Shown here in pieces: positions 36,848 through 42,229 of a stretch of 64,000 nucleotides of DNA (position 1 is the stretch's first letter; each line of letters starts with the position of its first letter). This DNA comes from Macrolepiota albuminosa (Eukaryota; Basidiomycota; Agaricomycetes; Agaricales; Agaricaceae), in the NCBI GenBank assembly GCA_027475525.1, contig JAMWFC010000083.1, forward strand, positions 1-64,000, in the 5' to 3' direction. Below the pieces are notes generated by a model. It saw only the letters and a list, made by a program, of their open reading frames with translations. It did not search any database and was not told where the DNA came from. Made by a program: the position numbers and the translations under genes.

Positions 36848-39800
36848 ATGATCAACAAACTGCTTCCTCTGTTCCTCCTCGCCGGAGGAACTGCCCTCGG
36901 CAAGCCATTGGAAGCGCGTGGCCAGTCGTACAAAGTGCGTATACTTTACCAACATCTAATCGAGCTCGTCGTGAGTACTTTTCCGGACTAGGATCTCGAT
37001 TGCACCTTGAAGGTACACACTCGCTGCTTTATTCTTGGCGTTCCTTTCAACAACCCTGAAGAGGCCTACAAGCGCCTGAAAGAAGACAACCGTCATTGCT
37101 CCAACGATGTCAATCGTCGTCTCTTAGCCGCGTTGTTGGAACAATGTATCAAGCACAAGCACGATCACCCCGACCACAAACACAAATATCAATGCGGTAA
37201 AGGCAGCAGCGAATACCCCGACAGCATGGTCACCTACTCTCGCGAATGCTGCACTGTACGCGATTCGAAGCATATATATGAAATGCTTGAGTGTAAGCAG
37301 GATAAGAACGGTGGTGGAAATGGTGGAAATGGCGGCGCCGGTGGAGCGGGCGGAAATGGCGGAAATGGCGGAAATGTTGAAGGCGGGAAAAGCTGTGACG
37401 ACGATGGGAAATCTTCGGCTGGTAATGGTGGGGCTGGTGGAGCGGGTGGCAAGGGAGGCGATGGGGGAAATGGGGGAAATGTTGTTCAAAAGTATTGGCG
37501 TAGAGGATTCGGGTCGGATAAAGGTGGCGCAGGTGATGGTGGTGATGGTGGAAGTGGTGGAAATGGCGGTGACGGCGGTGACGGCGGCGACGTCAAGGGT
37601 CATGGACATTCTTGCGACGACTGCCATGTTGAGCACGAATCTGGCGGTGGTAACGCCGGTGATGGAGGTGCTGGAGGTAATGGTGGAAATGGTGGAAATG
37701 GTGGAAATGTCGACCATGGCAGACCTCGTTATCGTCACCAGAAGTACAATCAGGTGCATGGCAAGAAGAGCGGCAGTGGACATGGAGGTGATGGAGGTGC
37801 AGGTGGGAATGGCGGAAATGGCGGAAATGGCGGAAATGTTGAGCGCGAGAAGGGCGACTGCTGCGGACATTGCGAATCAGGGAAATCATCGGCTGGAAAC
37901 GGAGGTAACGGTGGCGCTGGCGGCAACGGTGGGGACGGAGGCAAGGCCGGCAGTGCTCATGGTGGCCATCACTGGCGCAGAGAGGACCATCATGACGGTG
38001 GAGGTGACGGTGGCGACGGTGGCGATGCGGGCCACGGTGGCAAAGGTGGCGACGGTGGCGATGTACGCTACGACGACGATCATCATCACGGCCATCACTG
38101 GCGCAGGGGGCACCACCACGACCACCACGATCACCATGACGGTGGCGGCGACGGCGGCGATGGTGGAGAAGGAGGAGATGGAGGCAAAGGCGGCCACGGC
38201 GGCGATGTAGACTATGGCCACCACCATCATCATGAGAAGCATCACCACCGTGGTCATCATCGTAGGGGATACCATCACGACCACCACGACCATCACCGCC
38301 ATCACGACGGTGGAGGTGATGGTGGCGACGGAGGCGATGCGGGCCACGGCGGCAAAGGTGGCGACGGTGGAGATGTACACTACGACGACGATCATCATTA
38401 CGGCCATCACTGGCGTAGGGGGCACCACAACGACCACCACGACCATCATGACGGTGGCGGCGACGGCGGCGATGGTGGAGAAGGAGGAGATGGAGGCAAA
38501 GGCGGCCACGGCGGCGATGTAGACTATGGCCACCACCATCATCATGAGAAGCATCACCACCGTGGTCATCATCGTAGGGGATACCATCACGACCACCACG
38601 ACCATCACCGCCATCACGACGGTGGAGGTGATGGTGGCGACGGAGGCGATGCGGGCCACGGCGGCAAAGGTGGCGACGGTGGAGATGTACACTACGACGA
38701 CGATCATCATTACGGCCATCACTGGCGTAGGGGGCACCACCACGACTACCACGATCATCACCGTCATCACGACCACCATGACCATTACGACCACCACGAT
38801 CATCACCGCCATCACGACGGTGGAGGCGACGGCGGCGACGGTGGCGATGCGGGGCACGGCGGCAAAGGTGGGGATGGCGGTAATGTCTGGGAAGGCCATA
38901 AAGGACGTCATCACCACCACGACCATTACGACCATTACGACCATCACGGCCACCACGATCATCACCGCCATCACGACGGTGGAGGCGACGGTGGCGACGG
39001 TGGCGATGCGGGCCACGGCGGCAAAGGTGGGGATGGCGGGAACGTAAACTACGACGACGATCATTACGGCCATCACTGGCGTAGGGGGCACCACAACGAC
39101 CACCACGACCATCATGACGGTGGCGGCGACGGCGGCGATGGTGGAGAAGGAGGAGATGGAGGCAAAGGCGGCCACGGCGGCGATGTAGACTATGGCCACC
39201 ACCATCATCATGAGAAGCATCACCACCGTGGTCATCATCGTAGGGGATACCATCACGACCACCACGACCACCACCGCCATCACGACGGTGGAGGTGATGG
39301 TGGCAACGGAGGCGATGCGGGCTACGGCGGCAAAGGTGGCGACGGTGGGGATGTACACTACGACGACGATCATCATTACGGCCATCACTGGCGTAGGGGG
39401 CACCACAACGACTACCACGACCACTATGACCATCACCGTCATCACGACCATCATGACCATTACGACCACCACGATCATCACCGCCATCACGACCACCATG
39501 GCCATCACGACTATCACGACAATTACGACCATCATCGCCATCATGACGGTGGAGGTGACGGTGGCGACGGCGGCGATGCGGGCCACGGTGGCAAAGGTGG
39601 CGACGGTGGGGACGTACGTTACGACGACGATCATCATTACGGCCATCACTGGCGTAGGGGGCACCACAACGACCACTACGATCACCATGACGGTGGCGGC
39701 GACGGCGGCGATGGTGGAGAAGGAGGAGATGGAGGCAAAGGCGGCCACGGCGGCGATGTAGACTATGGCCACCACCATCATCATGAGAAGCATCACCACC

Positions 39801-42229
39801 GTGGTCATCATCGTAGGGGATACCATCACGACCACCACGACCACCACGACCACCACCGCCATCACGACGGTGGAGGTGACGGTGGCGACGGTGGCGATGC
39901 GGGGCACGGCGGCAAAGGTGGCGACGGTGGGGACGTACGCTACGACGACGATCATCATTACGGCCATCACTGGCGCAGGGGGCACCACCACGACCATTAC
40001 GACCATCACCGTCATCACGACCACCACGACCATTACGACCACCACGATCATCACCGTCATCACGACCACCATGACCATCACGACTATCACGACAATTACG
40101 ACCATCACCGCCATCACGACGGTGGAGGTGACGGTGGCGACGGTGGCGATGCGGGGCACGGCGGCAAAGGTGGCGACGGTGGGGACGTACGCTACGACGA
40201 CGATCATCATTACGGCCATCACTGGCGCAGGGGGCACCACCACGACCACCACGACCATCATGACGGTGGCGGCGATGGCGGCGACGGTGGAGAAGGAGGA
40301 GATGGAGGCAAAGGCGGCCACGGCGGCGATGTAGACTATGGCCACCACCATCATCATGAGAAGCATCACCACCGTGGTCATCATCGTAGGGGATACCATC
40401 ACGACCACCACGACCACCACGACCACCACCGCCATCACGACGGTGGAGGTGACGGTGGCGACGGTGGCGATGCGGGGCACGGCGGCAAAGGTGGCGATGG
40501 CGGGAACGTACACTACGATGACAATCATCATTACGGCCATCACTGGCGTAGGGGGCACCACCACGACTACCACGATCATCACCGTCATCACGACCACCAT
40601 GACCATTACGACCACCACGATCATCACCGCCATCACGACGGTGGAGGCGACGGCGGCGACGGTGGCGATGCGGGGCACGGCGGCAAAGGTGGGGATGGCG
40701 GTAATGTCTGGGAAGGCCATAAAGGACGTCATCACCACCACGACCATTACGACCATTACGACCATCACGGCCACCACGATTACCACCGCCATCACGACGT
40801 TGGAGGCGACGGTGGCGACGGAGGTGATGCGGGCCACGGCGGCAAAGGTGGCGACGGTGGAGATGTACGCTACGACGACAACAATCATTACCGCCATCAC
40901 TGGCGTAGGGTGTACCATCACGACCACCACGAAGGTGGCGGCGACGGCGGCGACGGCGGCGATGCGGGGCACGGTGGCAAAGGTGGAGACGGAGGCAACG
41001 TGCATCTCAATGACCGTCATGGTCAATGGCGTAAATCGCATTCATCCGAGGTTCGTGCCGGAAATGGGGGAGCTGGTGGAGCTGGTGGAAACGGAGGTGA
41101 TGGTGGAAAAGGCGGAAATGTCCAAAAGGCAGGACACTGCTGGGGTGATTGCCGTAAGAACTGCAAGGGCAATTGTCAAGGTGGGTCTCGCGCTGGTCAC
41201 GGTGGCGATGGTGGCGCAGCAGGTGATGGTGGCAAAGGTGGCGATGGTGGCAACGTTGTCAAGAAGAATTGGCGCCGAGGGCTCTATCGTCGCGGCGGAG
41301 CTATAGAACGCTATTGGCGTCGTTATTACGACCCTGGAGAAACGGCCTACTACAAAGCTGACTATTACAAATACAATGGGTCTGGAAACGGCGACAAGGC
41401 GGACTACAAGAATTACAATCGGTACAATTATTATGACAAAACCCATAAAATCAAGCAGAACCTCGACTGGTGGAGTCACAACGGCAACCTCAAATTCGCG
41501 AATAACAAGGTTGTATTGGGCGACCTGTTCGGCAATGGCCATGGTGGTGGAAATGGCGGTGGAAATGGCGGCGGTGATGGCGGCGGTGATGGCGGCGGCG
41601 ATGACGATGGCGGTGGCAATGGCGGCGGAAATGGCGGTGGCAATGGCGGTGGCAATGGCGGCGGAAATGGCGGCGGAAATGGCGGCGGAAATGGCGGCGG
41701 CAATGGTGGTGGTAATGGTGGCGGCAATGGTGGTGGCAATGGCGGCGGCAATGGTGGCGGTAATGGTGGCGGCAATAATGGAAATGGAAATGGTGGCGGC
41801 AATAATGGCGGCAATAATGGAAATGGAAATGGTGGCGGCAATAATGGAAATGGTGGCGGCAATAATGGCGGCAATAATGGAAATGGAAATGGTGGCGGCA
41901 ATAATGGAAATGGTGGCGGCAATAATGGCGGCAATAATGGAAATAATGGCGGCAATCGCGGTGGCAATAATGGAAATAATGGCGGCAATCGCGGTGGCAA
42001 TGGCCGCCGCCCCTTGGGCATCGGCGATGACGTTCTCAACAATGACTCGATCTTGGGCCGTGCTCTAGGCGCGTTCAGGAAACGGGATCACCATGGTGGT
42101 GGTGATGGTGGGACTGGCGGCGACGCTGGTCACGGTGGCCATGGCGGAAACGGAGGAGATGTACGAGACGGAGGCCACTATTGGCGTCGTGGCCAGGCTA
42201 CAAAACTCAGCCGTAGAGGCAAATTCTGA
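36848..42229 (+). CDS. Giant secreted GGX-repeat, His/Asp-rich protein
   Basis: Two exons, 36848-36934 and 36992-42229, with a 57-nt GT-AG intron, giving 1,774 residues. The N-terminus MINKLLPLFLLAGGTALG is a signal peptide. Residues about 30-135 form a compact domain with eight cysteines (DLDC, TRC, RHC, EQC, QCG, ECC, LEC). From about 140 to 1,460 there are some 27 modules of 18-24 residues built of GGX triplets (for example GGDGGDGGDAGHGGKGGDGG) that mostly end in NV or DV, separated by linkers of three kinds: YDDDHH-GHHWRRGHH, DYGHHHHHEKHHHRGHHRRG (five copies) and WEGHKGRHHHHD. A Tyr/Lys-rich segment (YWRRYYDPGETAYYK) and a folded-looking stretch (DWWSHNGNLKFANNKVVLGD) precede a (GGN)n tract, then a short last module and FRKRDHH, YWRRGQ, LSRRGKF. 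GGX triplets can form polyglycine II helix bundles; His/Asp linkers could bind metal; RR/KR sites could be cut by Kex2. These are inferences; no known family is recognised. Confidence 0.85.
37307..41260 (+). repeat. Coding minisatellite array of the GGX/His modules
   Basis: The modules are coded by 9-bp steps of the type ggtggcgac, with higher-order copies. The block coding DYGHHHHHEKHHHRG occurs at about 38207, 38519, 39185, 39758 and 40331 (spacings 312, 666, 573, 573). Near-identical copies imply recent expansion. The true copy number is uncertain because such repeats collapse easily in short-read assemblies. Confidence 0.85.
41541..42000 (+). repeat. (GGN)n coding low-complexity tract
   Basis: Nearly uninterrupted ggcggnaat-type repeats coding Gly-Gly-Asn, with some GNN variants; reads in the frame of the giant protein. 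Confidence 0.9.

Follow-up and report, generated by a model that had tools for sequence, protein, structure and literature searches.

A giant glycine- and histidine-rich modular protein in Macrolepiota albuminosa and its possible processing into metal-binding peptides

The first 64,000 nucleotides of contig JAMWFC010000083.1 from the Macrolepiota albuminosa assembly GCA_027475525.1 (hereafter the window) carry a long frame in which glycine modules alternate with His/Asp-rich linkers, raising the question whether such an array is a protein at all and, if so, of what kind. The sequence establishes a coding gene under purifying selection, with an eight-Cys head kept in a relative, regular modules and an excess of dibasic sites between the modules of a His array. 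This mushroom-forming fungus thus appears to possess a real gene for a giant, apparently secreted modular protein. For its nature we favour, at about an even chance, a secreted polyprotein of the Kex2-processed repeat protein (KEP) kind, from which metal-binding peptides would be released. Translation and a pattern search recovered the coordinates, 57-nt intron, frame, eight N-terminal Cys residues and 27 glycine modules described in the initial annotation; judged by eye, the product has a signal-peptide-like start, compatible with the signal peptide proposed there, and no long hydrophobic stretch after residue 18. From N- to C-terminus the 1774-amino-acid (aa) product is composed of the presumed signal peptide, the 8-Cys domain, six modules, the His/Asp array (18 modules), two modules, a Tyr/Trp segment, a GGGN tract and the last module (Table 1). 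It contains 31.6% Gly, 19.1% His and 13.9% Asp, and the calculated isoelectric point (pI) of the whole chain is 6.32.

When the 27 modules were compared in all 351 pairs, the ratio of amino-acid-changing to silent differences per site (pN/pS) was 0.18 (pS 0.660, pN 0.120), whereas the same DNA in the two other frames gave 1.75 and 1.53. The ratio varied by class: 0.05 for the array type A modules (13 copies), 0.22 for nine other modules and 0.36 for the WRR linkers (9 copies). The type B modules and the HHRR linkers, with five copies each, showed zero amino-acid changes, but their silent changes were few too (sums of 8.0 and 6.0 differences, each over 10 pairs). In the Gly-Gly columns, entropy rose from 0.016 bits at the first codon position through 0.153 at the second to 1.475 at the third.

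One clear homologue was found, LshimejAT787_1203140 of Lyophyllum shimeji (Lyophyllaceae), a hypothetical protein of 319 aa. The first 354 aa as query matched it together with a second protein, P0002, among 7990 scored candidates listed. With the N-terminal 136 residues it was the sole match among 443 candidates of about 248-788 aa, and residues 1-140 gave no match at E up to 10 among 639 candidates of about 600-1900 aa. The L. shimeji protein shares the signal-peptide-like start and all eight Cys, is 64% identical across the N-terminal 136 residues and has a first glycine module that there counts six triplets and ends in Val. As Lyophyllum belongs to the Lyophyllaceae, the window probably stems from an agaric of this affinity. 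The splice junction is supported by the alignment, in which PLEARGQSYK joined to DLDC corresponds to PLEARQSFKDLDC in L. shimeji. The L. shimeji protein differs in that its deposited model departs from the glycine frame within the second module, with neither WRR nor a His array; by eye its tail resembles glycine-module DNA in another frame, through either a model error or a true frameshift. P0002 (203 aa, E 2.1e-4) carries three (GGX)5-V modules and RR/KR sites and is a parallel in design rather than an established homologue, in which the rod-plus-Val plan recurs at another, again constant, length; with P0002 as query, the M. albuminosa genome gave no match. The initial annotation recognised no described family with this combination, in agreement with the Pfam searches, in which the N-terminal domain had matches only below the cut-off (Daxx, 14 bits; DUF6016, 13.8 bits) and the long frame none. 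Sequence searches of the PDB gave a single match for the Cys domain (E 0.29; no clear relative) and three for the modules (E 0.00048, 0.00061 and 0.039). Of these three, which were all read as low complexity, the first two are fusion constructs that contain linkers. The phage collection gave no match by tblastn. No account of such a protein was found in the literature searched, the supplementary tables of the KEP survey, where it could be listed, lying outside coverage.

The assembly searched comprises 100.1 Mb in 129 contigs. Among the best-scored candidates of the genome searches the gene was found at one other place, on contig C78, and no further paralogue was found. In the matches listed (the best 14 per locus; the best 40 in another BLAST search), C78 runs collinear with window positions 7710-14694 and 35788-54431, the identity being about 95-99.8%, with gaps including one of about 1 kb at 44455-45448. 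The intervening 21 kb (14694-35788), in which two scanned open reading frames revealed retroelement genes, are absent from the collinear place. Because the flanks are collinear at this identity and the 21-kb block is missing, C78 is best read as the other haplotype of this genome. Its copy of the gene at first shows three frame breaks, every one of them a tandem duplication of exactly 77 bp. A scan of the window for periods 60-129 recovered this period-77 signature at 12 places, all outside the gene, and a further three stretches of C78 had it once, twice and not at all; the sole other period in the window scan was 60, in the GGGN tract, where a shorter-period scan around the gene added 33 and 39. 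Since the signature is scattered over the window and the C78 stretches, we read the 77-bp duplications as assembly artefacts, most likely untrimmed overlaps at joins, and a broken second allele was rejected. Such duplications mimic frameshifts, so any frame break in this assembly needs checking for them. The gaps in the haplotype alignment measure 77, 77, 434 (read as 357 + 77), 24, 3, 24, 33 and 33; excluding the 77s, all six length differences are multiples of three, although repeat units of 9 and 12 bases favour such lengths anyway. Mismatches numbered 10 in 5265 aligned bases (six at codon position 3, three at position 1, one at position 2). The frame is kept between the two haplotypes. 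A non-coding, GC-rich minisatellite with a chance open frame, an outcome for which the initial annotation had allowed, would fit the tandem periods of 9, 153 and 312 bp, among others, and the breaks in the C78 copy. It is next to untenable and was rejected, given the pN/pS of 0.18 against 1.53-1.75 in the other frames, the codon-position entropies, the homologous L. shimeji protein, and breaks that fall at duplications of a kind found throughout the assembly.

Each of the 27 modules consists of seven [G/A]-G-X triplets, 26 of them matching the strict pattern. The middle Gly is invariant (189/189 triplets), the first position is Gly in 166, Ala in 22 and Ser in one, and X is D, N, H, K or E in 175, the remainder being A, S, T or Y. 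The residue following the module is Val in 26/27, using four Val codons, and Ala in the other. While module length is constant at 21 residues, the linkers between modules measure 14-66 residues (14-22 among the N-terminal modules), with one of 281 before the last module. The linkers themselves have a triplet period (lag-3 autocorrelation 0.364 over 18 linkers; shuffles mean 0.260, max 0.297, n=200), and the distance from RR to the next module is a multiple of three (6-51 residues) at all 16 RR sites of the His array (residues 358-1334), compared with 2 of 6 other listed RR sites. Together, these two properties give a single three-residue register in the array running from the RR site through arm and rod. 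A polyproline/polyglycine II helix would require such a register, but 9-bp DNA units could keep it as well. The GGX register described in the initial annotation stands in the refined form of seven [G/A]GX triplets followed by Val, and the linkers are His/Asp-rich as stated; WRR, however, had been taken as mere linker composition and its role as a dibasic site missed.

Polyglycine II bundle proteins, namely collembolan antifreeze proteins, Obg, the phage S16 adhesin and acetophenone carboxylase (described in PMC8409303), share the glycine-rich triplet register; the present protein differs in its charged X residues and long His/Asp linkers, and no sequence homology to PDB entries was detected. 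The springtail antifreeze parallel drawn in the initial annotation thus holds for the backbone register and fails for residue chemistry. An ice-binding protein on the springtail plan would be in keeping with the G-X1-X2 triplets of the collembolan proteins, X1 often being Gly, and with their constant helix length, as given in PMC10235112. The same source describes a flat ice face of Ala/Ser/Thr/Val, 3-4 triplets and linkers of 3-6 residues, whereas here there are seven triplets, linkers of 14-66 residues (one of 281) and no such hydrophobic face. As the X residues are mostly D, N, H, K or E, an antifreeze function was rejected and is very improbable.

The mature chain contains 26 KR/RR sites (24 RR, 2 KR), 2.8-fold more than the mean of 9.2 in 2000 composition shuffles (max 19). 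Trp stands directly before RR at 15 of the 21 Trp residues and Gly follows RR at 19 of the 24 RR sites; the 15 WRR sites are encoded in six codon spellings. Cutting at all 26 sites would yield 27 fragments, 14 with one module, five with 2-4 and eight with none. Ten of the 14 single-module fragments are 51-54 aa long, the others 35, 42, 84 and 87. Similarity was scored by global alignment, not with FIMO, among 13 of the 14, the 35-aa fragment at residue 1728 being excluded by a length filter. They fall into type B (5 fragments, pairwise identity at least 0.96) and type A (8 fragments, mean 0.73, minimum 0.45) and make up 42% of the mature chain. Le Marquer et al. describe KEPs by at least four fragments of two or more residues after KR/RR cutting, at least three of them similar, and repeats covering at least 15% of the length (PMC6339444); here there are 27 fragments, five similar ones of type B and eight of type A, and a coverage, computed in the style of these authors from the 13 fragments, of 0.31 against the cut of 0.15. 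According to PMC9769878, KEPs are widespread in fungi, their functions being largely unknown; in known KEPs of Agaricomycetes, KEX2 does the cutting and KEX1 the trimming. A proprotein-convertase P domain (PF01483) is matched in the genome over positions 1-56 of 86, at 59.4 bits. As cutting at the RR/KR sites would leave 14 fragments with one module each, a KEP is the best-fitting known kind. The wall, matrix or secreted metal-binding polymer suggested in the initial annotation is supported as regards a coding Gly/His/Asp repeat protein with a signal-peptide-like start; a long wall polymer is not a necessary part of it.

The main rival is nevertheless an intact structural polymer, whose uncut chains would bundle through their modules as polyglycine II and be cross-linked by Zn or Cu at the His/Asp linkers, akin to the Nereis jaw proteins. 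Its composition (31.6% Gly, 19.1% His) is near that of the zinc-binding jaw protein Nai11527 (29% Gly, 16% His; PMC13120676), and the modules at the N-terminus, with their short linkers of 14-22 aa and single dibasic site, suit an uncut chain. A polymer would have no need of the 2.8-fold dibasic excess or of WRR kept in six codon spellings, and we regard this explanation as possible, though on the unlikely side.

Cleavage at the dibasic sites would expose candidate metal sites. His occupies position 3 in 17 of the 26 predicted N-termini, comprising all 16 of the His array and one at 1728, with the first four residues GHHH (5), GYHH (5), GHHN (4), EDHH, VYHH and DHHG. Among these 17, position 3 is the only invariant His column of ten positions tabulated, these counts leaving aside the nine other N-termini, which have no His-3. 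An all-His column arose by chance in 17/20000 shuffles of 11 distinct 12-mers and in 367/20000 when one sequence per distinct tetrapeptide was used. Because the 17 N-termini were grouped post hoc, their copies are related by duplication and the shuffle destroys the triplet pattern, the His-3 pattern is only suggestive of a predicted Cu(II)/Ni(II) site, conditional on cleavage. Xxx-Zzz-His N-termini (the amino-terminal copper and nickel, or ATCUN, motif) bind Cu(II) (PMC7701195). The five type B repeats contain HExxH in addition. The calculated pI is 5.75-6.18 for 12 of the 13 peptides and 4.88 for one, and their calculated charge at pH 7 ranges from -5.7 to -12.5. A KEP could also release antimicrobial or signalling peptides for which metal is at most a cofactor, as in histatin 5, since a free Xxx-Xxx-His and HExxH are two of the metal motifs of that peptide as given in PMC7559477. 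We hold this to be quite improbable, as all 13 peptides are negative at pH 7, unlike cationic membrane-active peptides, and KEP knockouts of C. cinerea are described in PMC9769878 as lacking a phenotype in axenic culture.

In the KEP reading the precursor would be secreted, Kex2 would cut after WRR/HHRR in the Golgi and Kex1 would remove the basic residues; most of the peptides set free would measure 49-52 aa, and some would be longer. One triplet register would run through each peptide, from an N-terminal arm of His/Asp triplets along a polyglycine-II-like (GGX)7-Val rod of seven turns to a C-terminal arm rich in His. The free Xxx-Xxx-His N-terminus left by cleavage would be a Cu/Ni site, to which the arms may add HExxH and poly-His sites for zinc or copper. 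Outside the cell the rods may bundle, and the binding or bridging of metal by the arms may produce an extracellular matrix that buffers metal or is hardened by it; because the calculated pI lies near 6, the peptides might pack in soluble form in the acid secretory lumen and condense near neutrality. We infer these steps with falling confidence, from secretion through Kex2/Kex1 dicing of the His array, Cu/Ni/Zn binding by the freed arms and polyglycine II bundling to the metal-buffering or hardened extracellular material. A bolder proposal is a new class of fungal secreted metallopeptides. Here every peptide of the His array would have an amino-terminal Cu(II)/Ni(II) site unmasked by Kex2 and a polyglycine II rod of seven turns that shares one unbroken triplet register with its His/Asp arms, so that processing, metal loading and assembly of an extracellular scaffold would be coupled. 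This proposal is speculative and rather unlikely as a whole.

Several observations weigh against such processing. A single dibasic site (199) falls in the stretch of the six N-terminal modules, and that of modules 1345-1450 has none, so that part of the protein would stay undiced. Five fragments carry 2-4 modules, and the fragments are long and variable; RR accounts for 24 sites and KR for only two. Dibasic pairs also lie inside the Cys domain (56-57 and 71-72), and these are dibasic in LshimejAT787_1203140 too. The out-of-frame L. shimeji model gives no view of the dibasic sites, and the fragments of P0002 do not start with Xxx-Xxx-His. The post hoc grouping of the His-3 N-termini belongs here as well. 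AlphaFold2 produced no confident fold, either for 407 residues from a single sequence (predicted local distance difference test, pLDDT, 35.9) or for the Cys domain from two sequences (pLDDT 52.9), and a Foldseek search with the weak Cys-domain model gave 32 matches, none at E 0.001 or better; these modelling results appear neutral on polyglycine II, neither for nor against it.

Table 1. Features of the gene and 77-bp duplications (window coordinates unless another sequence is named)
Feature	Position	Strand	Basis or remark
Whole gene, 1774 aa	36848..42229	+	exon 1 36848-36934, exon 2 36992-42229 including stop; translation, pN/pS
Possible core promoter TATAAA, 181 bp 5' of ATG	36667..36672	+	sequence match
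Presumed signal peptide, residues 1-18, then KPLEAR	36848..36901	+	by eye; LshimejAT787_1203140 (L. shimeji) laid out alike
57-nt intron GTGCGT...CTAAT...TAG, CTAAT branch-like	36935..36991	+	L. shimeji protein unbroken over junction
8-Cys N-terminal domain, residues 30-136; Cys 33, 41, 65, 81, 97, 115, 116, 130	36992..37312	+	8/8 Cys in L. shimeji homologue
Six N-terminal (GGX)7 modules with short linkers (some with Cys), residues 137-350	37313..37954	+	module pattern
His/Asp array with WRR and HHRR sites, residues 358-1335	37976..40909	+	predicted Kex2 fragments of 42-119 aa, 1-2 modules each
Predicted fragment, type B example, residues 402-454, 53 aa: GHH N-terminus, (GGX)7-V, HExxH, HHRR end	38108..38266	+	5 copies
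Predicted fragment, type A example, residues 455-505, 51 aa: GYH N-terminus, (GGX)7-V, HHWRR end	38267..38419	+	predicted cut sites
Three modules with no dibasic site between, the first of array type; 4-Cys linker 1412-1424; residues 1345-1450	40937..41254	+	
Non-repetitive Tyr/Trp-rich segment, two WRR and one YRR	41255..41540	+	haplotypes identical over 41000-41540
Low-complexity GGGN / GNNGG tract	41541..42001	+	haplotype length differences are multiples of 3
Last (GGX)7-V module, KR upstream, YWRR downstream	42098..42163	+	module and dibasic patterns
Exact 77-bp duplications, window	15899, 22268, 24279, 28559, 35281, 35605, 43508, 54573, 56352, 58584, 59355, 62716		matched run 77-80 bases
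Exact 77-bp duplications, other stretches scanned	L005 4332, 4670, 5861; L006 3723; L007 2 and 221		matched run 77-80 bases

In the surroundings of the gene, five translated stretches of the window were compared with Pfam as a check for dikaritin/ustiloxin neighbours (DUF3328/UstYa); two contained retroelement domains and three nothing. A Rfam scan of the window at gathering scores gave no match. Downstream of the gene, 42728-43216 is an open stretch with the inner start MSSHGRQASSSTPQ and without a Pfam match. Positions 12001-14000 have a G+C content of 0.36-0.37 versus 0.44-0.50 around them, with a GC skew of 0.265 in the first kb, a feature common to the other haplotype.

Like the KEPs described in PMC6339444, PMC7329392 and PMC9769878, the protein begins in a signal-peptide-like manner, has three or more similar fragments separated by KR/RR sites, consists of repeats for over 15% of its length and is an orphan in sequence. 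It differs in its unusually large size (1774 aa), in cores of about 50 aa formed by a glycine rod with His arms, in a long head that would stay undiced and in the 8-Cys domain. The Gly-rod/His-arm composition was not met in the text of the KEP literature, whose figures and supplementary tables lie outside coverage, and the protein would represent a known KEP plan with a payload not found described in the literature searched. The Nereis jaw proteins Nvjp-1 and Nai11527 share a secreted, Gly/His-rich composition; they are animal proteins, and the likeness is one of composition. Histatin 5, too, is a short secreted peptide with both motifs, Xxx-Xxx-His at its N-terminus and HExxH. It is, however, human and 24 aa long, whereas in the present case the N-terminus is a prediction and the peptides, negatively charged at pH 7, are attached to a glycine rod; the likeness is taken as convergent. 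The PE_PGRS proteins of mycobacteria, which are bacterial, also place long glycine-rich arrays behind a conserved N-terminal domain, as far as the sources covered describe them. Their arrays follow a GGX/GGN pattern, and we know of no dibasic sites or His arms in them.

If the KEP reading is true, this gene would combine the KEP plan, glycine rods of fixed length and copper/nickel sites made by cleavage, a combination not found in the literature searched. The reading gives a sharp chemical prediction that can be checked with a short synthetic peptide, and protein materials triggered by metal could be modelled on it. With an uncut chain, too, the gene encodes a Gly/His protein that is strictly modular and under selection, in a fungus related to an edible mushroom.

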